From the NCBI GenBank assembly GCA_015227615.1, contig JAALGZ010000008.1, forward strand, positions 62,001 through 126,000: 64,000 nt of DNA. Direction: 5' to 3'. This document shows positions 15,446-61,400 of the stretch, one piece after another (the stretch's first letter is position 1; every line of letters starts with the position of its first letter). The stretch is from Labyrinthula sp. Ha. Lineage: Eukaryota > Sar > Bigyra > Labyrinthulida > Labyrinthulaceae. The translations under genes and the position numbers were made by a program. Below the pieces are notes generated by a model. That model did no database searches. It saw only the letters and a list, made by a program, of their open reading frames with translations, and was not told the DNA's origin.

Positions 15446-16648
15446 TCAAAATTCCCTAATAGCAACCAGAACTCTATTTTCTAGAGTTATTTCTTTTCCA
15501 ATATATTCAAGAAAATCAACTTTGTATCCTTCTTTTTCTAAATAACTTCTTCGTATTTCATCAATAAACCTCTTACATAACCACCCAACCTGTTCCTTCT
15601 CTTTAATACTCATTTCTTCCCTCCACGATCCTCCCCTTAGCAATTCTTCTTTCTTTCCTTTCTCTCCATGGCAAACTGCCCATGAACACATTAATTTCAC
15701 ATACCCAAAATCCTCCTTTGTAATGCCTCCAATTTCTTCATCTTCCCATTCCCATTCACAAAGCTGATGACAGCAAAGCGCTATACAAATAACATCAAAC
15801 TTACTTCTCATTGCCAATTTTAATCCATAATCTGTTGCAACTCCACATAAGTGTTTACTCATGGCCACACTTGTTCCTTTAAATCTATGAAAGCCTTCAC
15901 TTTTTGATATATCTAAGTCTTTTATATCTAATCTTATTCGTTCCCAATTCGATTTTTGTGACTCTTCTCTATCAAATCGAGTCTTGAAGGCCGCTCGATC
16001 TATAAGAAGGAAGTGAGAATTCTCAGCTAGATGTGGTCTTAAACCTACGGAAAACAATCCTTTGGCTGCACCAAGCTCAACCACATAACTTGGTTTATTT
16101 GTATCAATGAACTGAGAAAGAACTTTTACAAGAGATTTTACCTGTTGAGTGTGCTTAAACTTCAAAAATGTCTTTTTTTGTTTTGGGATTTCTAATTGCT
16201 TCACGTCTAGAGTTATTGAGGATTTTTTTAAAGGCCTCTGTATTAAAAAAATATTAATCTTGTATAAAATTTGATCAAATTTATGTTTTGAGAGCTTTGA
16301 AAGATCTTTTTTAACTTTGTTTCGGGTAAATGAGAAGCTGTTAATATTCTCAGAATAATATGGGTGATCTTTCTGAGATTGGATATGCTTTGCAACATTA
16401 CATATTTGGAGATGTTTTTTAAGTCTATACGTTTCTATGGAGTGAGTGGGATCTAAAGGACAAGGAACTAGGCGATTAAGGAAGTGAATCGAAGTACCTT
16501 TCGTAGCTTCTTCTGACTTGTCAGGTGTGTAGTGATTGTCACAATATTTTTTCTGGTTACATTTTGCAGATATAGGCCAAGCACAATATCCTAAGTATAA
16601 ATTATGAGTATAGTAGAACGGTTTTTCTTCTTTAGATAGTGTTTGCAT
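15446..16648 (-). CDS. TRM13: tRNA:m4X (2'-O) methyltransferase TRM13
   Basis: About 400 aa from the ATG at 16648; the frame is open further upstream to 16816, but without an ATG and running into an LTR, so the ATG start is preferred. TRM13 methylates the ribose at position 4 of certain cytosolic tRNAs using SAM. Domains in order: an N-terminal CCCH-type zinc finger (LGYCAW ... KCNQKKYCDNH, residues ~19-41), a CHHC (U11-48K type) zinc finger (CPLDPTHSI ... HLQIC, ~62-84), a basic linker, then a Rossmann methyltransferase with SAM-binding motif ELGAAKGLFS. The family hallmarks SKHLCGVATD and IALCCHQLCEWEWEDEE are also present. All expected modules are present and length is normal. The 3' LTR of the gypsy element ends 134 bp upstream of the start in the same orientation, so its native promoter may have been displaced. 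Confidence 0.93.
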   Translation of the reverse strand: MQTLSKEEKPFYYTHNLYLGYCAWPISAKCNQKKYCDNHYTPDKSEEATKGTSIHFLNRLVPCPLDPTHSIETYRLKKHLQICNVAKHIQSQKDHPYYSENINSFSFTRNKVKKDLSKLSKHKFDQILYKINIFLIQRPLKKSSITLDVKQLEIPKQKKTFLKFKHTQQVKSLVKVLSQFIDTNKPSYVVELGAAKGLFSVGLRPHLAENSHFLLIDRAAFKTRFDREESQKSNWERIRLDIKDLDISKSEGFHRFKGTSVAMSKHLCGVATDYGLKLAMRSKFDVICIALCCHQLCEWEWEDEEIGGITKEDFGYVKLMCSWAVCHGEKGKKEELLRGGSWREEMSIKEKEQVGWLCKRFIDEIRRSYLEKEGYKVDFLEYIGKEITLENRVLVAIREF

Positions 16649-16781
16649 TTGTTCTGTTTCTGAGGTCCTTTTGCCATTTACTCGTTCTATAGTTTCAACG
16701 TAAGTTTCGAGATGAATGACTTTTGGGGAGTTTCTCAAAAATCTATTTCTAGTAGATCTGACTGAGCTGTTTGCTAAGTGC

Positions 16782-17174
16782 TTTATCGGTCGACGAGTGA
16801 CTGATATTCCTAACACAAAATCCCGAAGAAAAGTGACTCACGAAAGAGTTACTTAATCCGAACAAGAAACGTAATCAAACAAGCTTTGAACAGATCTAGG
16901 AGAAACTAGATCACCAAGTTCAAACAAGATACAAATATTCCGAGGGTTTTTAAAGTTATTAATAAGATTGTTCTCAAGATATTAGGCGAAACTAATACAA
17001 CAATCAAATTGTTTACTTTATTGGTTATTATTAATTCTTAATATGGCTGGATTGGCCACTATTTTAACTACCTATTTTTACCCTAGGAAACTATGGGTAA
17101 TCCAATATTATAATATCAACTACTTATACTAATAACGTTAAACTTCACAAACTAGACAAAACAGGGTTCACACA
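16782..17174 (-). repeat. 3' LTR of the gypsy element
   Basis: 393 bp; on the minus strand it starts TGTGTGAACCCTG directly after a polypurine tract and ends ...GTCGACCGATAAA. It aligns end to end with the repeat at 26257-26649. A central block of about 100 bp (around 16940-17040) is practically identical between the two, while both flanks differ at many positions. An AATAAA signal (CCAATAAAG on the minus strand) lies in the conserved block. Confidence 0.9.
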
Positions 17175-17191
17175 TCCCCCTCCTCCTCTTT
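17175..17191 (-). promoter_or_regulatory. Polypurine tract (plus-strand primer)
   Basis: On the minus strand AAAGAGGAGGAGGGGGA abuts the 3' LTR start TGTGTGAACC, the expected position and composition for the primer of plus-strand DNA synthesis. It lies only 8 bp after the stop codon of the methyltransferase frame. Confidence 0.85.
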
Positions 17192-17199
17192 CTAAAAGA

Positions 17200-19350
17200 C
17201 TATTCACTAGTCTTTTCAGCCATAGATTTTTCAGGTCTGTAACACCCGAAAACTAAATCAGAAATTCTAGGACCCACTTCTAATCCAATTTGAATCCAAC
17301 CCGATTTCAAATTTGCACATCTCGCAAACAATTCAACCTTAAGATGCCTTTTCAAAAATATTCTTTCAAATAATTCGTATGTTTTTCGAGATTTGACTCC
17401 TTCAATCAAACGATCTGCAAAGATCACCTTTTCCTGTCTTAACAAGTTAATTTTCTCTACAATGTCACCAATTAACCTTTCCGATTTTCGAACAAAGATC
17501 AGTAAAGCCTCTGCCGAGTGCTGAAAATAATATCCTAACGATGTTCTTATCTTACCACTCGGCGCTAGCTTTATCCATTCAATGACATGAACAAGTTCAT
17601 ATCCCCTATCAAACATTTCATTCAAAGTCAATTCCCAAGTCCGATCAATTACCCAAATAGCAATGAAGGAAGCCTTCAAGGTTTCAAAATTCAAATTCAA
17701 AACTTGCGAATCGGGTTTCCGCGCATACGGAACCCTCAATCCTCTAATAGGATTCGCCTGACCTATCGCCCAAGGTGGATCCATTAATAACAAGTCCACC
17801 TTGTCTCCAGGCCACTCAGTCAAAATTGCCGACTTATATAAGTCCGCCGTAAACCATAATTTATCCCGAGGCGGGACACAAATCCTTGTCCAGAACGGAC
17901 ACCCTTCAAAACCAACCAAAACTAAGTTGCCACAAAGACGTTTAAGCGTAAAAGTTTGTACATGCTCAAATCCTATGGCAGGACTTTCCCCAGATAACTC
18001 GCACTCCACTGGAGCAACAAGTATACCTTCAATTTTTGAAACTAACTCTTTAGGGTAATCTTTGTCCAAGACTTCGTGTAGGTACCTCTTACGGCTTAGC
18101 TCTAGTGAGTATAAGAGATACGTACATTTCATCCCAGATCTCGACACCAGATTTTTATAAAGTTTAATGAAACGATCTTCACAAATTTTTACCATCGTCT
18201 CAACCTCTTTTCTCTTTCGTTCGAAAGCGTTCCTATACGATTGACTTACTCCCTCAGGACAAGTCTCCATTAGAAATGATTTCGCTGATCCCAGCGAATC
18301 AAATCTCCTATCAAATTCCAATTTATCAAGGGAAAACCTCTCCGAGGTTCCTTTTCCCTTGTCTATATCTATGAACTGACCCCTCAAGGGAGCCAAATCC
18401 ATCCTACCTAACTTTCTTTGCAAATACGAATACATCATCGCCTTCGATTTATAAGGCATATATCGCGTAAATTGCTCAAAATTTCCCATTCCAAATTTCA
18501 GAATAAGGTTCCTAATTAACTTATGATCAAAAGTTTTCCAACCCGATACAAAATCTTTTCGTCCAGGGAGTTTCCCCCAAACACTAAGATCTTCCTTATC
18601 CCTTAAGTAGTGTAGCAGGCTCGGGCGGAGTCTCCCAACCCAAGCTGCCGACACATCTATAGCAAATTTCCTATCTAACCAAGCTTGCGCCTGTTCCCTA
18701 ACCAATTTTTTCCTATTGGAAATTCGCTTTTCTCCCAAAAATTTAAGAGTAAGCTCCTTTACATCCCTATACATGGTGAGCAGCGGCTCCCATGTATCAT
18801 CTACGGGTTCGAAACCCCTCCATCTAACTCTTAAAAGGTACTCACCTTTTGAGTATCTAATCTCTAAAAACTTTTGAACTTCAAGTTCACCCCAATTATT
18901 AATAAAAACTTTCCGAAGTGAGTCATCTGGAACGAAACCATCAGGCTCATAGAAGTATAAACGACTTCCATGTACAATCTGGGTTTCCCCATTCAATAAT
19001 CTAACCCTATATACATTCGACGAGAGTAACTCGATTACATTAACTGGACCAGACCAAATCAACTTAATCTTGTTACTCTCCCTAGGGGTATTCTTTGTAC
19101 TAATTAAGCACCAGTCTCCAGGCACATATTGTATGCAAGCCTTGTCGACTCTCTTTTGGCGCTTATTCCAATAATCATTCCTTCTCCGCTTCATGAGCGA
19201 GACGTAATCAGCTACCTGACTATGCATCTCATCCAGCTCACGTCGGAACTCCATCGACAGACGATATAGGATATCCTTATCAACCCTAATCGCACCCTGC
19301 CTATCTCCAATTTTCCGATAGATTACTTTTGGGAAAAGCCTCCGTTTCAA
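17200..19350 (-). CDS. Integrase C-term + chromodomain + Myb-like + MT-A70 methyltransferase
   Basis: 716-codon frame of the gypsy pol. It is in the frame +1 to the integrase part and overlaps it by 50 bp; no ATG marks its start, so it is read either by a frameshift or as a decayed continuation. Residues 1-135: integrase C-terminal basic/GPY-like region (IKLIWSGPVNVIELLSSNVYRV). 151-207: chromodomain with aromatic cage-type residues (FLEIRYSKGEYLLRVRWRGF, DDTWEP). 258-315: a Trp/Phe-spaced helical segment resembling Myb/SANT (WKTFDHKLIRNLILKFG.GNF). 495-695: MT-A70 domain with the catalytic motif DPPW at 524-527 (DNA 17770-17781), IAIWVIDRTWEL, a 'GYELVHVIEWIK' strand, RTSLGYYFQHSAEALLIFV and the closing KSRKTYELFER...KVELFARCANLKSGWIQIG. 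This is the METTL3/METTL14/METTL4 pattern, i.e. N6-adenine methylation of RNA or DNA. Whether the enzyme is active is unknown; no stop or missing motif is seen inside the domain. Confidence 0.9.
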   Translation of the reverse strand: MKRRLFPKVIYRKIGDRQGAIRVDKDILYRLSMEFRRELDEMHSQVADYVSLMKRRRNDYWNKRQKRVDKACIQYVPGDWCLISTKNTPRESNKIKLIWSGPVNVIELLSSNVYRVRLLNGETQIVHGSRLYFYEPDGFVPDDSLRKVFINNWGELEVQKFLEIRYSKGEYLLRVRWRGFEPVDDTWEPLLTMYRDVKELTLKFLGEKRISNRKKLVREQAQAWLDRKFAIDVSAAWVGRLRPSLLHYLRDKEDLSVWGKLPGRKDFVSGWKTFDHKLIRNLILKFGMGNFEQFTRYMPYKSKAMMYSYLQRKLGRMDLAPLRGQFIDIDKGKGTSERFSLDKLEFDRRFDSLGSAKSFLMETCPEGVSQSYRNAFERKRKEVETMVKICEDRFIKLYKNLVSRSGMKCTYLLYSLELSRKRYLHEVLDKDYPKELVSKIEGILVAPVECELSGESPAIGFEHVQTFTLKRLCGNLVLVGFEGCPFWTRICVPPRDKLWFTADLYKSAILTEWPGDKVDLLLMDPPWAIGQANPIRGLRVPYARKPDSQVLNLNFETLKASFIAIWVIDRTWELTLNEMFDRGYELVHVIEWIKLAPSGKIRTSLGYYFQHSAEALLIFVRKSERLIGDIVEKINLLRQEKVIFADRLIEGVKSRKTYELFERIFLKRHLKVELFARCANLKSGWIQIGLEVGPRISDLVFGCYRPEKSMAEKTSE

Positions 19351-21373
19351 TGTATTCCCTAGTAGGATCTGTATTCAAAAACAGCAGATTAGCACTCGGG
19401 GCATCGTTCATGCCCGGAAGCTTCCTACTAGGCAAAGGAACCTCATTTACCGCAGTCATTACTGACTCGACAACGTCCGGCCACTGATCCCATTGTAATC
19501 TAAGTTCTGAAACCAAACTTCGCAAGAAGCTCAGAACTTTCCTATGAACAATTTCTACTTCCCCATTGGTCCAACTAGCATAACTCACTGCGTAGTTATG
19601 GGTAAATCGAACCTCCTTTTGTAACAGTTCAAGTAATTGGTTCGCAAAATGGGAGCCCCTATCAGTTACAAGGGTAAACTCCACCTCTAATCTCCAATAA
19701 GTATGAAACTTACTTAGAGCCCTAACTACAGTTCCTGCATCAGCTCTAAGAGCGTAATGAAGAAAACAAAACCGAGAAAATGCATCCGTTATAACCAATA
19801 TATAACCTTTAGCATTAACATACAAAAAATCAGCTACAAGAACCTCTTTAGGTCTTCTAGCCTCAGTAACCAATATCAAATTTGTTTTCATCAATTTCCG
19901 TGTCCTATTACAATGGATGCAGTTAGACCTCAGTCCAAGCATCACTGTTTCCGCTGATACCTTCGTACCATAACCCGAAGGTATTATCCACTTAAATCGC
20001 CTCACTTCCGCCACATCCTGGACTCTAGACCCATGTCTATTCGCCAAGTGAATGTGAACGAGTTGGCGCTCAAACAATGATTCGGGAATGATAATCCTTC
20101 CCTCCTCCTCAGAAATTTTTATACCATCACCCAAAGCTTCACGCTTTTGAGCATCCAAAAGCTCCTTTTCCGATATCCGCTTCCAATCTCCTTGGTAATA
20201 TGGATTCAAACACGAGATGCGATCCTTATCCAAGGCTCGCATCCTTTCATAAGTCAATTTTTCCTTTTGTTTCTTTGGAGACAATCTCAGTTCAGAAACA
20301 ATCACATCAAGTCCTACTCTAGGAACTTCAAGCTTGACTTCTTCCTCAGAAGAAATCCCCGATTTTGCCATCTGGGACGAAACCCATGTACCAATTTCGT
20401 CTAGGGATACGGCAGATTCCGTATCCACTAGAGCTAACCGACTGTACTCCTCTTCCAGACTCGGTTTCTCAATCTTTATCTCTAAACCCCCATCCGGCCT
20501 GAGGCCATGGTTTATCCCATCACTCTCATACCAAGGATTCGAGAATTCCGTAATTGACGAATCAGAATCAGAATCGGGGTGTCTATCCTTCAACGGAGCC
20601 CACCGATCCAGACCCTCATCGACTTCCACTGGATGTCTGAACATCCTCCTATAATATCTGCGTTCTCCAGACGTCAATGACAGTTGAGGTCCCAAAGACG
20701 CATCCGATTCCTTTCGGTCACGGCGTATTGCCGCTCTCATTATCCTAATGGAGGCAACTCTCTGCTTCTCTCGCTCTGGCGTAGCCGCCCAACGCGAAAG
20801 CATATCAGCAAAGACATTATCCTCCCCCTTAATATGATGTAACTCTACATCTGCTTGTTGCAGGGTCAAAACCCATCGTTGCAACCTATTCAAATGGCCA
20901 TGGTTGATCTTAGATCCTCCTTTTATAATGGCCCTCAAATTCAAATGATCCGTATACACCTGTATTGGCGTAGGATGAAAAGGTAACAGATACGACAACC
21001 TGTTAAAAGTTTTCACAATAGGGTATAGTTCCTTATGTACGATGCCCCATCTAGTTTGGGTATCTTGAAATTTCCCCGAAAAGAACATCATAGGAACTAC
21101 CCTTTTATCCAAAAGTTTTCGATTTCTTTGAGAAGTATCGGCTTGCATCAGAATCGAACTGAAGAACATGCCAGAAGCATCTGTTATTAACAACAAGTCC
21201 TGGGTTCTATCATACAGGCTCAACTTCTGCTTTGCCGCAATACTAATCGTCTTAAGAAATTTCCTAAAGGCAGCTGTGAACTCAGCTTTCCATGAAATCC
21301 TTTCATTTTTCTTTTTCAATTCCGATTTTTGACCCCTCATTTCAGGGTAAAATTCCATAATAACACTTCTCAA
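19301..21373 (-). pseudogene. gypsy pol: RNase H and integrase part
   Basis: 690-codon frame, same frame as gag and RT but cut off from RT by TGA (21497-21499) and TAG (21383-21385). Residues 60-195: RNase H with LLITDASG, KELYPIV, YTDHLNL and ADMLSR, supplying the acidic residues D65, E115, D142, D190. 200-430: a long acidic linker of no known domain. 440-490: integrase zinc finger (HIHLANRH ... CIHC). 513-607: the DDE core with VADFLY (D515), LVTDRGSHF (D571) and NGEVE (E607); the last two are separated by exactly 35 residues as in retroviral-type integrases. The frame ends at 19301 and coding continues one base later in the next frame. The isolated parts look well conserved; only the joins are broken. 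Confidence 0.88.
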
Positions 21374-21496
21374 CTCAGCTAACTATGGGATTGCCAAAGA
21401 TAACCACTGAGACAAGTGCATCATTGATGCCAGTTGATAGACATATTCCGGTCTTGGCACATCCAAGATCCATGAATAGTACTCCTTCTTAAAATT

Positions 21497-23167
21497 TCAT
21501 TTGCTCTTTGCCACCTTTCGGTCGCAATATACTATTTCCTTAGCAAAAATGATCGATTTAGCTGGGCTAATCCGAACTCTTGCTTTCCTCAAATTCCTCA
21601 ACAAAGTTTCCAATAGCTTCAGATATTTCCCGAAGTCGTCCGCATAAAGCAAACTATCATCGATCCATTGAATGACTCCATTCCTTGGACGATTTACTAA
21701 TCTTTCCCCCACCACCTCATCAACCATCCTCTGATGGAAGAATACTGGGGTACTATGGTATCCCATAGGTGCAAATTGGAGCTGGAAAGTGCCATGCTCC
21801 GATACAATGTTAAAATACTTCTTAGCTTCTTCAGTTATTCCTAACTGATCGAAGCCCGAAACAACATCAAAACTGCCATAATACTTGCTACCCGCAAGAT
21901 TATCAAAACAAGTTTCCAAATGAGGGAGTTGATTAACATCCCTTCTCAAAATCTTGTTGACATCAACAAGATCAACAACCATTCTCAATTTATTTCCCTT
22001 TTTTGGCACCGCAAATACCACCGAGCCGAACTCAGCGGACTTAACTTTGGTAACCAATCCTCTTTCTGCCATACTTAGCAGCTTATCCCTAATGAAATTC
22101 GATTTTTCCGAAGACATTGGCCTAACCCTGGGGTAGGCAAACTCAAAATTTTCCAAAGGATACACCGGCATTGGTGACATCCCACTAATCCTAGTCTGAG
22201 TGTGGTCCGTGGCAAACACATCCCAAAAGCTCAAACACAATTTCCTAAGTAACTTTTTCATTTCCATTGAGGCTTCCGAACGATCTACCATCTCGTTGAT
22301 GGCTTTCTTGATCAAAGGTTCCTCATCCTCCAAACTCAAACCTTCCCCTACATCAGGAAGAAGGTTATCTCCCAAATCGTCATCAGCGATGTCCTCGACA
22401 TGACGACGCAATTTTATAATTTCTCCAAAATCAATCCCTTCAAAATTCCCTGAATTTATGCGCTCAACCAAATCGAGACTACCAATAGAGGCATAAATCC
22501 TTGTCGGTTGTATAGGTTCAATCCATGAGTCGACGTTAAATGACTTGGGTTCATCCCCTAGTCCGTCATCCAAGACTCTTTCCCATGCGGAATATAAAGC
22601 CGCTGTAGAACATCCCCGAGCGTCCTCGTTAGATAGGCGTCTACCCAAGGTGAGGTTTTCACTAAGTGATTGCCTCGCCTTAATGAATCGGACCTCGACA
22701 TGTCCATCAAGATTCATTAAGGTTTTTGGTACGTTGCCGACCGAGATTTGAGGGTAAACTGAAATGGCGCCATCCTGCAGCGATTTAGCCATCAGCATCA
22801 ACCGAGCCACCTCCCCGACCGTACCATGGGGTTCAATCAGCACATTCTTGTGCTTTTGTCTACTAACGCGAGACTGGCAAATACCCCTACCAAGAACCAT
22901 ATACCTCCTCACCGACTTAATCAATTTATTAGGTACCCAGTGCAACACTCGGACTACTTCAAGTAGCTTATACCCTTTCGATGTCAAATAATTCATAATC
23001 CCTTTAAGTTTAACCGAAATAGTACATACAAATATCACACTAGGCCAATTACAGATCTCTAATCTACTCTCTAACCACAAGACACTATTTACATATCTAT
23101 AAACAATGAGAGTTGAGATCTTTCCTTGTATTTGGCCCACCAGGTGGTTAGCCTGGCTGCCGATTCC
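21497..23167 (-). pseudogene. gypsy pol: reverse transcriptase part
   Basis: Begins directly after the gag-protease TAG stop, in the same frame, and ends at a TGA. The first ~320 codons form a spacer with no domain I recognise. The RT palm and fingers follow: VFAVPKKGNKLRMVVDLVDVNK, SFDVVSGFDQLGI (first catalytic Asp), FQLQFAPMGYHSTPVFF, and the active-site box WIDDSLLYADD in which Trp replaces the usual Tyr/Phe before the first residue of xDD. Codons after the TGA still read as RT connection sequence (NFKKEYYSWILDVPRPEYVY), showing that the stop is a mutation and not the natural end. Confidence 0.9.
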
Positions 23168-26100
23168 CTACCCGAGTCCCAAGTTTTGAGCGGGATCTAA
23201 ACCCATCTTTCTCAATTCGGGTCTCCCAATTAGAAAGCTTGGCCAATCTTGCGATTGAACCAATACAACTTTGGCCCTTGGGCAAGCCCTACTTTCTAAA
23301 CCATGGACTTTAACAACAAGTCCCACATAACCTACGGCTAAAATCTTAACCGGGGCATCATTTGCAACATGAACGTTGCCACTCGCACTCGAATAGCTTT
23401 CTAGCAAATCCTTGTGCTTCCACCAACTTCCCACTGTGACTTCAGCTCCGCTATCAAATTTAGCATCGCCAATCACATCTCCAGATTTAGTGCAAATCTC
23501 GTAACCTTCACCAAAGTTACGAAATTGGGATACCTCCCCGACATGCACTTCCAAAGTTGGATACTCCTTCGTACCCTCAATCATAAGATCATAGCCCTCA
23601 GGCACCATAGATTTCATATCCTCAAGCTCCTTTTGTCTGGGTGGAGCGGCTAAGGCAAGCACATTACTTCCCTTAAACCCCGAGTGCGGGCGCGAATCAT
23701 TCGCTGATTCCTTGCCCCCCATCATCATTCTGGCTTTCACAATCACAGAATGTTTCAATGATGTTAACCCTCTTGGTGTCTGATAACTAGACTTTCCTCC
23801 AGGGTTTTCCATCTGACGACGAAACGCCCGATTAATGAAATCTTGAACTTGGCGGGTTTTCAAAACATTCCCCTCCACAGATTTCAGTTTCCTTTCATCA
23901 TCTTTCCTCAAAACATTTACGGCAAAAGTAACACAATCGTGCATACCATGCCCATGATGCTTACAATAAGCACAGGTTCTGTGGTGATTCCAAGGAATCT
24001 CGGAATACCACTTCTGATGAAAGTCTTTTTCCTTACTCAAAACTCCAATTGATTCACCCGTGAGGTTAATGGGTACTGGACTCGCTGCCATTGGAATTGG
24101 CACAAAGTTAGCCACCTTACTCACATTAGGTGTTCCTATCCTATTAACCGAGGGAGTCCTCGGCTTCCTTTCCTTAATTTTAGGTCCCGACTCTGGAACC
24201 TGACCATTAGATGCATCGACACCCCTGTCCAACGCAAACTGACGTTGGGCTTCCAAAAGGGTCTGAAGCATCTCCACCGAACGAAGGGGATCCTCGAAGT
24301 TTCTAACTTTACTCCGAATCGCCTCCTTCGACAAACTAAAGCTAGAGGGCACTTTTCTCGTTATCTCATTTAATAACTCGATCAGCGCTTCCTCCCCTAG
24401 CCTTTCCGCATAACCTTCCCCAATCATAGAACTCACGTTCATCATATAAGTCTGTAATCTCTCCCTGCTATCCCCTGAGGCCGGGTACTTAACTTCCTTC
24501 AGAAGTCGCATGGGATCTTGGCGATTCTCAGCCTTTCCTTTTTCATAATAATCCTTTAGGGAATAATACACAACATCCCTATCCTCCTCGGATCTACAAA
24601 ATTTTTCTAACAATTTTTCATGAACGAAGCGGCGGGGCTGGAATGACGGATCCAACGTCAATAGCTCACCTACAACGTTCAACCATTGACCAAGCTTTTC
24701 CATTTGCAAGGTCTCCAAAACATCCACTTTGGGCAACATATGCTTAACTCTAGCAGTGGACACTAGAGGAGCAGCCCTCAATTGAGATACTTCATTAACA
24801 ACATCTCTCAAAGATTTAATTTCAGCTCTAAGGGTATCGATATACACCTTAGAGTCGACCATCTTCTTATCAGTATCTACGCGAAGGGCATCAACATGTC
24901 CCCTCGCATCACCAATCATCTGATGGATTTCCCTATTGCGAAATCTTCTTTTTTCGATTTCTCCATATATCTCTTCTCTAGTTGAATTAACCTGAGAAGC
25001 TAAACTCGGCAAGTAGGTCGACACTGCTTGCGAGTTTACATAGTTAATGATGACGTATCTTTTCAACTCCTCAGCATTAGGATCCGAAGGTTGGATAGCA
25101 TCAAACATTCCAATGTCCACGTTGGTCGCAAGACCAGCCGCTTCCATATCCAATTCTTCCCCACCAACCTTTTCAGGCCATGCTTGGTGTCCGGGAAGAC
25201 CCATAGTTTGATTCTCAGCATTCTTGCTCCTTAGTGCCGCTAGGGTTGTATTATTTTGAATACGAGCCCTTTCATATTGCACTCTCAACTTAGCAAAAAC
25301 TTTCCTCTTCTCCTGAGGATTCAGAGAATCAAACTCTAACAAATCCCTTTCCATAACCTTTTTCTCAACAAGAGATCCAGCCGCATTCCCGCTGGTAGGA
25401 TCGTTTAATTTCCTAGTGACTTCCTTATAAAGTTCGTCATTAGACTCAGCATTCCTCACGGAAGTTGCTGACCCTTCAATCGAGGTTACTCCAGCTCCAG
25501 CCCCATAATCTAGGGATTCATCTGAAGTACCTCTTCTCCTAATTGATTGCCCTTTCTTCAGCCTATACTTGCGATATGCCAAATCTCTTTGTTCATCATC
25601 GCTCAAGGCATCCAAATCAGGCTCATAACCCAAATTACCAATAGTTTTTTCTTGATTGGCGATCGTTCGGTCTATAACATCGACCTCTTCGATCTCATCC
25701 CCACTCGAACCACTAGTCGTTTCCGCATCTAAGGCTTGCGTCTCCCTAGAATTAGAGCTCTTAGGAACTCCTTTGGCTTTAAAATACGCCGCAGAAGATT
25801 TCCTCTTTGAGATATCCAATTCAATCAATTTCGATGAAGGGGGTCCTTCATCGACCAAACCAATAGCCTTCGCCTTCACAGACTTAGACTTCTTAACGAC
25901 CGGCTTCACAGCCTTAGCAATCGCTTTCCTTTTTGAACTTGTCACTGGGGTTTTTAACTTAACCTTCAGTGACAATCCCTTTTTCCTAGTTAGGGATTCA
26001 CCCCCTACAGAGGGATCATCCTTTCCAAATGACGACATCTGCGTAGGCTGATCGGAAGACGGTAAAAACTCGTTCTCCTCCCCAGCCGTATCTACAGATG

Positions 26101-26218
26101 AAGTCCTATTTTTGGGGTTTCCCCCTCCCATACTCAATGAAGGGTCTTCATCACTCAATGGGGCAAGTTGTTTGCCCGATCGAGTGACTCGAGCAGAGCC
26201 CTTTTTCAAAGTTACCAT
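23168..26218 (-). CDS. gypsy Gag with CCHC zinc knuckle and aspartic protease
   Basis: Intact 1016-aa frame from the ATG at 26218, 38 bp inside the 5' LTR. The N-terminal ~250 residues are rich in Lys, Ser and Asp with nuclear-localisation-like basic runs (KRKAIAKAVKPVVKKSKSVK). The middle is helical with coiled-coil stretches and corresponds to the capsid region. Residues 749-762 are a zinc knuckle CAYCKHHGHGMHDC (CX2CX4HX4C) that binds element RNA. Residues ~920-1010 are a pepsin-like protease with the active site DSGAEVTVGSWW and the second conserved strand FLIGRPELRKMGLDP. Protease sits at the Gag end, before a TAG stop; in most Ty3 elements it is the first pol domain. The stop (GGG TAG GGA) is followed in the same frame by RT. 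Confidence 0.92.
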   Translation of the reverse strand: MVTLKKGSARVTRSGKQLAPLSDEDPSLSMGGGNPKNRTSSVDTAGEENEFLPSSDQPTQMSSFGKDDPSVGGESLTRKKGLSLKVKLKTPVTSSKRKAIAKAVKPVVKKSKSVKAKAIGLVDEGPPSSKLIELDISKRKSSAAYFKAKGVPKSSNSRETQALDAETTSGSSGDEIEEVDVIDRTIANQEKTIGNLGYEPDLDALSDDEQRDLAYRKYRLKKGQSIRRRGTSDESLDYGAGAGVTSIEGSATSVRNAESNDELYKEVTRKLNDPTSGNAAGSLVEKKVMERDLLEFDSLNPQEKRKVFAKLRVQYERARIQNNTTLAALRSKNAENQTMGLPGHQAWPEKVGGEELDMEAAGLATNVDIGMFDAIQPSDPNAEELKRYVIINYVNSQAVSTYLPSLASQVNSTREEIYGEIEKRRFRNREIHQMIGDARGHVDALRVDTDKKMVDSKVYIDTLRAEIKSLRDVVNEVSQLRAAPLVSTARVKHMLPKVDVLETLQMEKLGQWLNVVGELLTLDPSFQPRRFVHEKLLEKFCRSEEDRDVVYYSLKDYYEKGKAENRQDPMRLLKEVKYPASGDSRERLQTYMMNVSSMIGEGYAERLGEEALIELLNEITRKVPSSFSLSKEAIRSKVRNFEDPLRSVEMLQTLLEAQRQFALDRGVDASNGQVPESGPKIKERKPRTPSVNRIGTPNVSKVANFVPIPMAASPVPINLTGESIGVLSKEKDFHQKWYSEIPWNHHRTCAYCKHHGHGMHDCVTFAVNVLRKDDERKLKSVEGNVLKTRQVQDFINRAFRRQMENPGGKSSYQTPRGLTSLKHSVIVKARMMMGGKESANDSRPHSGFKGSNVLALAAPPRQKELEDMKSMVPEGYDLMIEGTKEYPTLEVHVGEVSQFRNFGEGYEICTKSGDVIGDAKFDSGAEVTVGSWWKHKDLLESYSSASGNVHVANDAPVKILAVGYVGLVVKVHGLESRACPRAKVVLVQSQDWPSFLIGRPELRKMGLDPAQNLGLG

Positions 26219-26242
26219 AGATTCAATCGTGTTTCGGTTTTC

Positions 26243-26258
26243 AATTGTTTAAACAATT
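26243..26258 (-). promoter_or_regulatory. Primer-binding-site position, a perfect palindrome
   Basis: The place where a tRNA primer-binding site (normally starting TGG) should lie, directly after the 5' LTR, holds the perfect 16-bp palindrome AATTGTTTAAACAATT and no tRNA-complementary sequence I recognise. Ten bases of it (TAAACAATTT) are complementary to a stretch inside the LTR conserved block (AAATTGTTTA). Confidence 0.45.
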
Positions 26259-26649
26259 TATCGGTCGACGAGTGACTGATATTCCTAACACAAATTGCCC
26301 AAGAAAAGTGACTCGCGAAAGAGTTACTTAATCTAAGCACCAAAGACAAATTAAACTAGTCCGAATAGATCTAGGAGAAACTAGATCACCAAATTTAGAC
26401 AATATAAAGTTATTCCGAAGGTTTTTAAAGTTATTAATAAGATTGTTCTCAAGATATTAGGCGAAACTAATACAACAATCAAATTGTTTACTTTATTGGT
26501 TATTATTAATTCTTAAATTGGCTGGATTGGCCACTATTTTAAACTACCTATTTTTTACCCTAAGATAATACGGGCACTCTACTACTACTATAAAATATTT
26601 ATACTAAACGTGTTAAAGATCACACGTTAACTAAAATAGGGTTCACACA
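26257..26649 (-). repeat. 5' LTR of the gypsy element
   Basis: 393 bp matching 16782-17174. On the minus strand it begins TGTGTGAACCCTATTTT. A TATA-like AGTATAAATATTTTATAG follows some 45 bp in, then the conserved block with CCAATAAAG. It ends ...GTCACTCGTCGACCGATAAA. Identity with the 3' LTR is high only in the centre; outer parts have many substitutions and balanced indels. Confidence 0.9.
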
Positions 26650-56081: not shown

Positions 56082-58484
56082 TTAAAATGCTTCATTTAAT
56101 ACTTTTTCAAGATGTGTTTTGAAGAACTCGGTGTCAGAACCCTTTTCAGACTTTACCACCAGTTTGGAGGAAATATTCGAAACCAGTAACTCACCTAAGT
56201 AAATGTGCTCCGACTTTGCGTAAATAAAAAATTTGACACCCTCATTAACTGATCCTGATGCAAGAATTTTGACAGAAATAGTTTGTAATGCCTTTTCCAC
56301 TGTCGTAACTATTTCAGAAATAGTTCTCGCTCCAGTGGAGATCATCAGAATATAATCTTTCGATGGAGATAAACTTCTCCAAACTCCTCGGAATTTCATT
56401 TTATCCATGGAAAACGATGTCTCAAAGCCCATAGTTTTGTGGCCATTTTCTTCAGGTTTAATAAGGTCATGAAAAAAATTATCCTTGTGTGGAACGGTGC
56501 TGTTCTTTGGAGTTTCTGACTTTCCAAAATCAAGCAACATATCATTTTCTTCTTCATGTGGCTCCATCACTTTGGCTTCAAGCCTTTTTTCCCCTTCTCC
56601 TAGCGTCTCGTCACCATTATACGTACCAAATCGACTCATGTTCTTCTCAAAAATAACACTTAAGGAGTTGAAACCAAGCTCAGTATTCTTGCAGTTGCCT
56701 TCTCTTTCACTTGGAAGTTGCATCATTGCTTTAGCATAGGCTATTGGATCTGCCTTCAAACATTGCACAACAAGCTTTGCCTTTTCTAGTGTTAGGAATT
56801 CAACTTTACTTGCAGTCAAAAGTTTGTAACTCTGATCAAAAACCTTCTTGCAGTTTTCCCCTTGCCTTAAATAGGTTCTCGTGCATGCATAAAAGAGCTC
56901 CAACCTATATTGATCACTCATGTTTTCCTGGAGGCTATTAAGCAGTCTCAGCAAGACTTCCCCAGTTGACTTCATACCAGAGCAATAATATCCCAATAGC
57001 CTAACTATCAGCTTTAAATTTTCTTCAGATACTTTTCGCACTGCTTCTCTCACATTGTTGCTTAGCTCCACTGACTCTTCATCATCAAGAATTTTTAAAT
57101 CATTCAAGACTTTGTATGAGACTTTCCTCAAACGCTTAGCATTCTGTTTAGCTAACTTTGGAGTATCAAGCAGAATTTGACAATAACTCTTTAAGGCGCA
57201 TGACCTACAAAATATCGAAGTCAATCCTTTCATCTTTGTCAACCTTAGGACTTGGTTCAGAATACCTTCAGCACTTCCGGGTACTTTAGAAACAATTCTA
57301 GGAAAGCTGCCCAGAGCCTTACTAGCCAGGATTAAGTTACGATTTTCCGCATAGAAAGATATTTCAGCAACAATTATATCTACATTTACAACGTTACAAA
57401 GTTCAGCTAGAATTTCCAGCTTTGATATTTGGTTCCACATAGGTTCAGAAAAAAGAAGATAGAAATGCCGGTACTCATCGTCAAAAACTCCTGGAAATTT
57501 TTTAGAAAGCAGCAAAATATGTTTAAGCAAAGAATATTGCAACTCTGGAGAACTACTTCCAAGCATCCGAAGCATTGGTTGAAGCAAGCGAGCCAATACC
57601 TTATATTTCAGGTTCTTCATGCCTGGAATTTCATTACTATTAACAACTTTTAAAAAGCATTCAACCGTAGAGAGACACAAAGCAGAATTGTTTGATTTCA
57701 AGAACGGGTCCAAGATATTGAACAGTTTCAAAACAGATGATTCATCTTTGACTACATACTTCTCAGAAACCAAACGCAAAACAAATGTTGCTTGCCACTC
57801 TTCAAACCCTGCAATTCTCTTTAAGAGCTCATCCAAATCCCTTTCATCAACAACCAAACCACCTGACCCAGAAAGTATTTCATTAAGAACCATACATGCA
57901 GAAATAGCAACATCTCCCTCAAAATCTCCCATCATTTGATACAGCTTGTTCACTAAATCGGTTTTTACATTTTCATCAATTTCAAACCCCTGATCAATTT
58001 TAACGGCTTCATCAGAGAGCGCATAGAACTTACAAATTGCTAATACTGCACATTTTCGCACATACGAAGATTTATCCGTTAATCCTTTTTCAATCTGAGG
58101 AGTTAAATATTGAACCGTTGAAATTAATCCCAGAGAAGAAAGTGATCGAAGAGCTAATCCACGAATCATAGGATCGACATCAGAACAGTCCTTGGTCATT
58201 GTGTTAATACAAAGAGTTGCAACTTCTTCATTTGATCTAGCATATTTAGACATGAATAAATAACAAAGTTTCTTTACAACAATGTCGTTAGTGCTTGCTG
58301 CCATGACAATGTCTGGAAAAAGTCTTGAGACGTCATATCCCAGTGTCATGTAGGCTATAACCTTTTTTATGACTTCTTGCTTTTTGTGTGGATTATTTTG
58401 AACTTTTGGGTTGCGAAGAAGTGATTGTAATTCTGTTACTTCGGTTTTTCTACCTTCTGCGAAGTATACACTGTTTCTGCTCAT
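56082..58484 (-). CDS. AP4B1: Beta-type adaptin, most like AP-4 complex subunit beta
   Basis: 800 aa, single exon, ATG at 58484. Residues ~1-530 are the HEAT-repeat trunk of large adaptins, with the beta-adaptin N-terminus VIKKVIAYMTLGYDVSRLFPDI and VKKLCYLFMSKYA. KDCSDVDPMIRGLALRSL follows, where the 'CSDxxPMxRGLALRS' wording and the preceding 'A-S-T-x-D-I-V-x-K-K-L' fit AP-4 beta better than AP-1/2 (which have TVGKDVSALFPDV and EDPNPLIRALAVRT). A polar hinge covers ~600-690. The C-terminal ~110 residues form an appendage-like domain (KFRGVWRSLSPSK ... IYLGELLVSN), again like AP-4 beta. AP-4 is a clathrin-independent coat at the trans-Golgi network. No typical clathrin box is seen in the hinge, although LLDFG is present. 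Confidence 0.8.
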   Translation of the reverse strand: MSRNSVYFAEGRKTEVTELQSLLRNPKVQNNPHKKQEVIKKVIAYMTLGYDVSRLFPDIVMAASTNDIVVKKLCYLFMSKYARSNEEVATLCINTMTKDCSDVDPMIRGLALRSLSSLGLISTVQYLTPQIEKGLTDKSSYVRKCAVLAICKFYALSDEAVKIDQGFEIDENVKTDLVNKLYQMMGDFEGDVAISACMVLNEILSGSGGLVVDERDLDELLKRIAGFEEWQATFVLRLVSEKYVVKDESSVLKLFNILDPFLKSNNSALCLSTVECFLKVVNSNEIPGMKNLKYKVLARLLQPMLRMLGSSSPELQYSLLKHILLLSKKFPGVFDDEYRHFYLLFSEPMWNQISKLEILAELCNVVNVDIIVAEISFYAENRNLILASKALGSFPRIVSKVPGSAEGILNQVLRLTKMKGLTSIFCRSCALKSYCQILLDTPKLAKQNAKRLRKVSYKVLNDLKILDDEESVELSNNVREAVRKVSEENLKLIVRLLGYYCSGMKSTGEVLLRLLNSLQENMSDQYRLELFYACTRTYLRQGENCKKVFDQSYKLLTASKVEFLTLEKAKLVVQCLKADPIAYAKAMMQLPSEREGNCKNTELGFNSLSVIFEKNMSRFGTYNGDETLGEGEKRLEAKVMEPHEEENDMLLDFGKSETPKNSTVPHKDNFFHDLIKPEENGHKTMGFETSFSMDKMKFRGVWRSLSPSKDYILMISTGARTISEIVTTVEKALQTISVKILASGSVNEGVKFFIYAKSEHIYLGELLVSNISSKLVVKSEKGSDTEFFKTHLEKVLNEAF

Positions 58485-61400
58485 CTTTTATTATGGATTT
58501 TTCTTGTATCTTAAGTAAGTTTCACTTGGTAGTAGTTTTGGGGAAATTTGCAGAAAGCTCTTTTTTTCTTCATGTATAGATAAACTATTGAGTAGAAAAT
58601 GTCTTGACTAGGAGTGCACAATGAGGAAGCTCCTCTTTAAGGAAAAAAGAATCCATAAAATTCAGATATTAATGTCAAAGTTCCCATTATAGATTTCATT
58701 GAATATTCTCAATGAGTTCCTCAGTCCTCACTCAATGTGGAATCGAAACTCGCTCACACTCAGTGAGTTTCTAGTAAAATTACGCAAAAGTCAGAGCGAG
58801 TTCTAATTTACAACTTGATTTTCAACTCTGTCAATAATCACTTATACTTGTTGCGCTTTTCATGTTATTATTACGGTAAAAGTAGGTTGCAGATTCTACC
58901 TTTTTCAGGTCATTTTTGCATGTTGCGAGCTACTGCAGCTATCACCTTCTCTGTCTTCTTCAACGAGCTTCTGGCACATCAATGGGTTAGCCAAAAGACC
59001 GTACAATAGAATTTTTCCCTATGTCAAGTTTTTGCATCTTGCTCAAAAACAATTTCTGAATTAACTCAACTTACCTAGTCTTAAATTTAACAAATTAAAA
59101 TTTAGTAACCTCAATGCCTATACTCCTACTGCACTTTTATAGACAAAACAGAAAATGTATTAAGCTCTATAGTTATTATACCAATAGAGTTGATAGTGCA
59201 TAGCTACAATTCAACATTAGATAGGTTTATTGCCCCATATTTCTGTAAGAGGGATACCAAAACAAAAACGTTTATATTGAAATCTGAAACTGCCACGATA
59301 GTTTTCTAGTTATGTCATCTTTCCTTTGATGGGGTTTGTAATCGGAAACAATTTCGCAAATTTATTCTACAAATATTTTAGCCAGTTTAAAATTTTGTCT
59401 TTTCTTCACTCAACTCTTGGTTTTATGCTTTAGAGATAGTTACTTGTGTTACCAAGTAATGCAGAAAATAATTTCAACTTACCCAATGAGAGATTGATTC
59501 TAACCTGTTTACATTTCTATTTTCAAACTTTTTAATTGACATGAGTTACATATGATTTGTAAGTCTTTAAGATTTGCCTGTAGTTGTATTGTCTAAGGTA
59601 GTAACAAAATAAATGACAGTTAATGATAAACATTAGTCTTGAGTCAGAGGCAAAGATATTAAATATTTCCTAATTAGTAGTGCAACTGATAACATTAGGA
59701 TTAATAATCTGCAACAAACATACAAGAATTTCATGCTAAATTAATCTGCTTTTAACTCATAGTTCAAACCATAGCATGAGGGTAATAAACTTTTCTGATA
59801 TTAGTTTTTGGATTATAATTCCTTGGAGCAATAATTATATATGAAATCGTGTCATTCTATAATAGTCAAAATCAATCATTGTATAAATCTGTTTCAATTT
59901 TACAAGAACATACAGATGTCACAAAACTACACTCCGAGTTGAACTATAAAAAATGGAGCTGTTGATACTTATTTTGAGCTGATGTCTCGAATCATACCGT
60001 AATGATGGTGAGATGATTCTCTTTAGCTAAGCTACTAACTTTAGTGTAGCGCATTGTTTCTCATTATATATATGGCAAGTGAATAAATAATTATTTTCAT
60101 GATATATGCCATGGCTGCTAATATAAAACTCGTCTTGGAAGAGATAATAGTAACGATTTAATAAGTTAGTTTTAACTTAAAATATATCCTGTAACTATTA
60201 CCACATAAATAGCAATATCTCGTACTAGTATATTTAAGCAATAAACTTGATGATATAATTCTACTAATGAGAATAAAATAGAATAGCTGAAATCTTTCTC
60301 TTGTGTTAAAGAATACTCGGTAATACTTAGTCAATCAAATTGCGCACCCCAATCACATTCTAAGTAATGTATCCGTGATCTGGTACATAGGCAGCAATAA
60401 ACGAATAACAAACTCTTTCAACTACTGTCTCTTATTTTAACGTCTTTAATACGTCTTATCAAATATTAAACATCTTACCCATTCCTATGCTTTTCGTATA
60501 ACTGTATAGAAAAAGGAATGCAAAGATAACTGATAGAGACAGGATATGAGTAGAGACATTCATGGCTAATGACTGTAGTAACTACAAGCTCAGAGTTTAT
60601 GATATTGAGGAGAGCCATATTTAAAAAAAGTAATGAATAAACATTTTCTAACTTTGGATTAGACTGCTTCGAACCAAAGCTATAGTCTAATAAGTAATTT
60701 CTTGTTTAGAATATATATAATGATTGAATTAAGCTATTTTATTAGGGACTCTAAGGTTCAGTAGCGTATATATTTTTTACAATTTGCTCTCGTTTGTCTG
60801 ATTATGCATTACTGAAAGAATATTACTACTTATACCATAATTCGATTACCATGTTCTTCTTTTTAACTAAAGCTAATTGGTGGGTAAATATAAAGTTCTT
60901 TGCATTTTAACTACGGGTTTTGGGCCTTATAATCCTCACAAATAAAAAATATTCACTATACCTATTGAATTTATAAATCTATAGTTATTTGTTTGGTTTT
61001 TAAGCAGAGATTATATTTAACAACCATTGAAACTTAATATTACTGCAAAGGAAGAAACATAGATAATTCTTAAACAAGTATGTCTTTAGGGGCCTAAGAT
61101 CAATATTACCCATCAGCATCTACATTAATATAAATTTAACTACCCCACCTAGGCTCAAGTATGAATACATACGAAAAATTGTGAATTAAATATGAATTAA
61201 GGGTTCTCACGTTGAGCGAAATCCCATATTATCCCTTAATTTTTATCGGTTTCATTTAAAACCTTTATCATAATCAGGATATCAATTAATTTTAGGTACA
61301 TATTATTGTCGTAGTATCGACTAGCAAAGTAACCGAGAAAAAAATTACAGCAATTTTATTGCATGAAGTTAATAGTTATCTAAATAGATAACACTTAGAG

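Follow-up and report, generated by a model that had tools for sequence, protein, structure and literature searches.

Does a retrotransposon in Labyrinthula sp. Ha encode its own adenine methyltransferase, and what might such an enzyme do for it? The question is raised by an open reading frame (ORF) in a 64,000-nucleotide stretch of this genome (contig JAALGZ010000008.1, positions 62,001 to 126,000; hereafter the window), which an initial annotation had read as the end of a Ty3/gypsy element carrying a complete MT-A70 domain. The Pfam profile PF05063 matched the ORF strongly, with an E-value of 1.8e-18 and a score of 67.5 bits (cut-off 23.9) over profile positions 2-172 of 172, and the DPPW motif is present at 17770-17781 as annotated, so the domain is complete. 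We refer to this domain and the p1-like DNA-binding domain encoded ahead of it as the module.

The MT-A70 Domain Lies within a Ty3/gypsy Element

The ORF belongs to a long terminal repeat (LTR) retrotransposon at 16782-26649 on the minus strand (Table 1). The LTRs, the polypurine tract, and the order reverse transcriptase (RT), RNase H, and integrase identify it as a Ty3/gypsy element; RT, RNase H, and the integrase core were located by Pfam upstream of the MT-A70 ORF on the same strand, and a profile of the element proteins matched the Ty3 Pol chain 7q5b in a profile search of the PDB. The stop codon of the ORF occupies 17200-17202, and the polypurine tract, read from 17193 to 17175, abuts the start of the 3' LTR at 17174. 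Because the stop codon lies 6 nt ahead of this LTR-abutting tract, the MT-A70 domain is inside the element; the initial annotation had placed it correctly but had given the gap as 8 nt.

The integrase C-terminal piece at the start of the ORF scored 18.4 bits, under the cut-off of 27, and the chromodomain that follows matched the MPP8 chromodomain in the PDB with an E-value of 1.2e-7. In three relatives (L049, L047, and L045) a chromodomain at the integrase C terminus exceeded the Pfam cut-off of 25.1, with 31.6, 29.0, and 27.5 bits. By this integrase chromodomain the elements are candidate chromoviruses; chromodomain-bearing Gypsy elements of Ectocarpus are said, in the available part of PMC12477816, not to be chromoviruses. 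The six long ORFs that were scanned over their entire length (L031, L034, L040, L045, L047, and L049) each have an uninterrupted frame from RT to MT-A70.

MT-A70 Elements Are Numerous in the Genome

In the 50.8 Mb of genome searched, the best 150 of 354 candidate places for PF05063 and the best 150 of 424 for the MT-A70 domain of the window merged into at least 238 distinct MT-A70 places, the host AMT1 gene included. Of the 238 listed, 117 have an RNase H upstream, 114 have a p1-like domain upstream, and 186 have either; neither is listed for the remaining 52, one of which is the host AMT1 gene itself (L036). Seen from the element side, 116 of the best 150 (of 379) Ty3-type RNase H matches are followed within 6.5 kb by an MT-A70 domain on the same strand. 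Among the matches listed, 123 of the 150 are accompanied by MT-A70 or p1 and 27 by neither, including the 11 top-scoring ones; these 27 represent either a separate Ty3 lineage or elements with an MT-A70 domain beyond the matches listed. Flipping the strand as a control reduced the pairings of MT-A70 with RNase H and with p1 to zero in both cases.

Besides the window copy, its family includes 12 near-full-length copies of the module, with identities of 84-98%. All 12 carry the domain, which refutes a one-off insertion. Near-full-length matches to the window domain at 70% identity or more number 20, and 10 of these, the window copy among them, have no stop. A 10.9-kb ENA contig from a different genome (P0009) contains RT, RNase H, integrase, and MT-A70 over the cut-offs and a p1-like stretch in the alignment. 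Its MT-A70 domain had no match above 38% identity among the matches listed for the Labyrinthula genome; it is distinct from the copies there, and the element type is therefore not confined to this genome.

Taken alone, the window copy, which is decayed and has LTRs only 85% alike, could be put down to chance capture, to a flanking host gene, or to an assembly artefact. That explanation is refuted by the census, with at least 238 places that mostly share order and strand, LTR-like repeats on either side where examined, and purifying selection (below), and we regard its probability as negligible. The initial annotation had recognized the MT-A70 domain and had missed both this genome-wide scale and the p1-like domain.

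The Enzyme Is Closest to the AMT1/MTA1 Class

Sequence scores and a signature motif suggest that the element MT-A70 domain is nearest to the AMT1/MTA1 class, which writes N6-methyladenine (6mA) in DNA, and not METTL3-like as first annotated. In the PDB, Tetrahymena MTA1 chains were the top match of the window domain at 87.5 bits, against 35.4 bits for human METTL3. A profile of 14 element proteins matched MTA1 with an E-value of 6e-64 (chain residues 47-372) and METTL3 with 3e-40. MTA1 was also the first match of the predicted structure of the window module; for the predicted fold of L049, MTA1 and METTL3 tie, with sequence identities of 35-36% and 26-27%, respectively. The motif P-x-R-G, whose value as a class signature is our own observation from the alignment, follows DPPW in all 23 AMT1/MTA1 rows and in 37 of the 39 elements sampled; the rows for METTL3 and METTL14 do not show it. 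The 39 elements were taken mostly from the best-scoring PF05063 places, and motif counts among them need not hold genome-wide.

A tree was built from 64 domains, namely the 39 elements, 23 AMT1/MTA1 domains, METTL3, and METTL14; AMT2/5, AMT6/7, and METTL4 were left out. It used 21 of the 120 listed host-gene relatives, with 16 identical rows dropped and domains of under ~175 model positions omitted. Elements and AMT1 together are split from METTL3/METTL14 at 98/93, with two outgroup rows only. A METTL3-type identity was rejected on this branch, the PDB scores, and the profile E-values.

The host AMT1 gene groups with labyrinthulid, Blastocystis, and three further AMT1 rows (86/89). Over 62-63% of its length it shares 65% identity with the AMT1s of Mucochytrium and Hondaea, in keeping with a stramenopile host. 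No METTL3 orthologue was seen in a six-frame search of the genome that ignored introns, in which the human METTL3 query best matched AMT1, at 44%. Matches to C5-methylases in the genome number only two.

A p1-like Domain Precedes the Methyltransferase

The p1-like Myb/homeobox stretch of the window ORF aligns with those of 13 relatives, sharing with them an invariant W, G.G, and K. In L049 the stretch between chromodomain and MT-A70 has p1 of the Tetrahymena MTA1 complex as its best PDB match (E 5e-10, 42.5 bits), and the profile of 14 element proteins matched p1 with an E-value of 1.2e-17. The p1 match of the stretch beside MT-A70 means that p1-like and MTA1-like parts are joined in one polypeptide. 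Among the best 150 of 334 p1-like candidate places, 114 are followed by an MT-A70 domain; for 29, neither of the two partners, MT-A70 and RNase H, is listed. These lone places include C100:136081 and C65:144833, and one lone p1-like place may be the host p1 gene.

The Module Is Conserved, Apparently Old, and Recently Mobile

The MT-A70 domain is under strong purifying selection. The ratio of nonsynonymous to synonymous divergence (dN/dS) is 0.06-0.07 in three of three pairs from the window family (the window copy, L051, and L052; dS 0.67-0.82) and 0.06-0.08 among L024, L029, L030, and L049, excluding the pair L024-L029, which has no synonymous change. Pairs from the remaining four groups gave 0.05-0.77, where each of the high values reflects few changes; one further pair had no synonymous change. 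Between L040 and L044 the ratio is 0.06 for MT-A70 and 0.08 for the p1-like domain, compared with 0.03 for RT, 0.04 for RNase H, 0.07 for the integrase core, 0.10 for gag, 0.17 for the integrase end and chromodomain, and 0.22 for the protease-like stretch.

RT and MT-A70 identities are correlated across 13 elements (22 before removal of near-duplicates) with an r of 0.93, reached in 0 of 9999 permutations. RT identity among elements falls as low as 29%, so that the module looks old and inherited. Of 20 loci examined, 18 showed a direct-repeat, LTR-like pair. In 7 loci the two repeats are at least 99% identical over at least 440 bp; L044 has 100% of 443 bp and L034 has 99.8% of 441 bp. Such near-identical LTRs indicate that MT-A70 elements have moved recently.

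Catalytic and Contact Residues

Residue numbers of MTA1 are those of PMC9174199, transferred by our own alignment. Of the 39 sampled domains, 24 keep DPPW together with the aligned lysine and arginine of the S-adenosylmethionine (SAM) pocket, including the window copy and two further copies of its family, and 21 of the 24 also keep an asparagine aligned with Asn360 (the exceptions are three B2 rows). At the loop through which MTA1 contacts MTA9, Y-L-Q-H in MTA1 (PMC9174199), the window copy has Y-F-Q-H.

Several features weigh against an active writer of the MTA1 kind. DPAW replaces DPPW in 12 of the 39 domains (L001-L007 and L009-L013, several of which are the same elements as L031-L035 and L037-L039), and the second proline of the motif, Pro211, is named as a catalytic residue of MTA1 in the available text of PMC9174199. 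Three further domains have other motif changes. The window family has A and L at the positions of Asn359 and Asn370, two SAM-pocket positions, and the B2 rows have G at Asn360. The MTA9-contact loop is unevenly kept, being Y-L-R-H in L040 and L049 and lost in L047. SAM binding by Tetrahymena MTA1 depends on p2, and its full activity on MTA9 (PMC9174199). Transposable elements were not enriched in 6mA in the part of PMC12695648 available, in species that may lack MT-A70 elements. Finally, in the tree the elements lie on one side of a branch that is weakly supported (58/35), with the host AMT1s apart; a single capture of the module is likely.

In view of the DPAW and SAM-pocket changes, the domain of some families may be an altered enzyme or a partner without activity. 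The module could serve as a structural or competitor subunit: by binding DNA or host MTA9/p2 it would redirect or poison the 6mA writer of the host, with no catalysis of its own. The 12 DPAW domains keep most of the remaining sequence and are still under purifying selection, with dN/dS 0.09-0.17 at dS 0.28-0.79, and MTA9 is itself a paralogue whose catalytic site is not conserved (PMC9174199); the three other domains lacking the motif and the two changed SAM-pocket positions of the window family point the same way. The residue changes slightly lower the odds of a 6mA-writing element and raise those of a noncatalytic subunit. However, the 24 domains with an intact motif, lysine, and arginine, mostly with the Asn360 equivalent as well, argue for catalysis, and we consider a purely noncatalytic role rather unlikely.

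A Possible Role in Marking Element DNA

The explanation that we favor, with only modest confidence, is that an old chromodomain-bearing Ty3/gypsy lineage, whose Pol ends in a captured p1-like and AMT1/MTA1-type module, writes 6mA on its own double-stranded DNA and so gains permissive chromatin. The self-marking with 6mA proposed in the initial annotation is plausible. We infer both activity and effect from what is known of MTA1c, the MTA1 complex, which according to the accessible text of PMC9174199 methylates double-stranded DNA at ApT, with no or weak activity on RNA and single-stranded DNA, and in which p1 and p2 form the DNA channel.

The module would be made as the C-terminal part of Pol, be carried along with integrase and cDNA, and methylate the DNA of the element in double-stranded form, with ApT as the probable site, before or shortly after integration. 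Host MTA9 and p2 are putative partners that it may recruit. AMT1 6mA accompanies transcribed, permissive chromatin, and its maintenance from hemimethylated ApT has been suggested (PMC12695648). Because the mark goes with such chromatin, a new copy would resemble an active gene, and because maintenance from hemimethylated ApT is suggested, host AMT1 could keep the symmetric mark of the element after replication. The chromodomain may bring the writer to copies methylated at histone H3 lysine 9 (H3K9). HP1-type chromodomains are read as binders of H3K9 methylation. More tentatively, and on balance doubtful, a Pol-borne 6mA writer behind a chromodomain reader could place the "active gene" mark of the host on new copies and, with host AMT1 copying the mark at each replication, provide a heritable epigenetic camouflage.

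The same enzyme might instead methylate element RNA (m6A, N6-methyladenosine) and thereby control translation, packaging, or decay. The AMT1 sequence class, the fusion in relatives to a p1-type DNA-binding subunit, and the none or weak RNA activity of MTA1c (PMC9174199) make this quite unlikely. We give little credence to a role in which methylation, instead of opening chromatin, shields cDNA from a host nuclease or sensor or keeps the element itself silent to limit harm. Protection of cDNA and chromatin effects at insertion sites have been discussed for retrotransposon-borne cytosine methyltransferases (PMC5890265), but in the AMT1 species covered by PMC12695648 it was transcription that AMT1-type 6mA accompanied.

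Features of the Window Copy and Its Surroundings

The window copy is decayed. Its frame from gag through RT to RNase H has stops at 23168, 21497, and 21383 and changes between 19301 and 19374, and its LTRs are identical in 337 of 396 columns with 6 gaps (blastn, ~85%). The middles of the LTRs are near-identical and their ends have diverged, although another module copy is 98% identical; no target-site duplication was seen around them, and the copy may be a recombinant.

Table 1. Features of the MT-A70 element in the window
Feature	Position	Strand	Evidence
5' LTR	26257..26649	-	blastn of LTR pair
gag-like ORF, 1026 aa	23168..26248	-	
Reverse transcriptase domain (in ORF 21497-23167)	21527..22009	-	PF00078, 50.5 bits
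RNase H domain (in ORF 19301-21382)	20855..21211	-	PF17917, 65.3 bits
Integrase core	19589..19858	-	PF00665, 38.4 bits
Terminal pol ORF, 724 aa stop to stop: integrase C terminus, chromodomain, p1-like, MT-A70, in that order	17200..19374	-	
Chromodomain, aa 165-198	18781..18882	-	PF00385, 21.4 bits (under cut-off 25.1)
p1-like Myb/homeobox domain, aa 277-338	18361..18546	-	7f4l_E, E 0.07 (weak alone)
MT-A70 domain, probable AMT1/MTA1 type, aa 527-699	17278..17796	-	PF05063; MTA1 7f4r, 87.5 bits
Polypurine tract, 19 nt, AGAAAGAGGAGGAGGGGGA	17175..17193	-	sequence at LTR junction
3' LTR	16782..17174	-	blastn of LTR pair

A protease-like stretch with D-S-G-A was recognized by eye towards the end of the gag-like ORF, where Pfam gave no match. 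In P0008 a retropepsin-like stretch lies late in Pol, between p1-like and MT-A70 (aa 2195-2302; PF00077, 21.7 bits, cut-off 20.7). Stretches in the same place score under the cut-off in L031 (aa 1410-1506, 15.3 bits) and L040 (aa 1941-2037, 14.7 bits; both in ORF numbering), and L034 and L045 show D-S-G-A there by eye. In L047 and P0003 the retropepsin-like stretch is ahead of RT, also under the cut-off. The order of domains in pol seems to differ among families.

Just inside the 5' LTR (26225-26256), at the position expected for the primer-binding site, is the short palindrome AATTGTTTAAACAATT. Adjoining the element, 15446-16837 holds a host gene for the tRNA methyltransferase TRM13 (171.8 bits), and 56082-58487 encodes an adaptin N-terminal region and a β2-adaptin appendage.

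Comparison with Known Systems

No description of an MT-A70 enzyme in an LTR retrotransposon was found among the matches listed in a search of titles and abstract starts in open-licence PMC, preprints excluded, which is not proof of novelty. In the available part of PMC12695648, MT-A70 families are portrayed as relatively static and endogenous genes as the target of the AMT1 pathway, as opposed to the dynamics of cytosine methylation driven by transposable elements. The retrotransposon lineage described here, a very successful one, has incorporated an AMT1-type writer together with a p1-like partner. This would bring 6mA into the conflict between host and transposon. The elements also offer a natural p1-MTA1 fusion for studying assembly of the writer, and their many copies in a single organism allow a direct test of the role of 6mA in transposable element expression.

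The closest enzymatic counterpart is MTA1c of ciliates, early fungi, and algae, which shares with the module the catalytic class, DPPW and P-x-R-G, the p1-like Myb domain, and PDB profile matches to both subunits. However, as host proteins in MTA1c, MTA1 and p1 are separate members of a four-subunit complex (PMC9174199), whereas the element has them in one Pol behind a chromodomain. As a transposon, the element has the LTRs, polypurine tract, and RT-RNase H-integrase-chromodomain order of chromodomain (chromovirus-like) Ty3/gypsy elements and differs in adding p1-like and MT-A70 domains after the chromodomain, with a protease-like domain also there in some families.

Retrotransposon-borne DNA methyltransferases are known from cytosine-methyltransferase elements of dinoflagellates and charophytes and from Dam-like DIRS elements, as far as the accessible text of PMC5890265 describes them. 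Those enzymes are of unrelated families in other element classes, whereas in the present case a eukaryotic 6mA-writer family is found in an LTR element. An orchid Ty3/gypsy element has likewise captured an adenine-methylation enzyme, AlkB, but this enzyme is encoded in an additional ORF and erases m6A from RNA, and is not a writer in Pol (PMC9289625, in part). Algal DNA transposons that combine ParB with an N4C/N6A methyltransferase resemble the present elements in pairing DNA binding with methylation, although, as presented in the available portion of PMC12477816, their domains are of prokaryotic type and stand in a DNA transposon.
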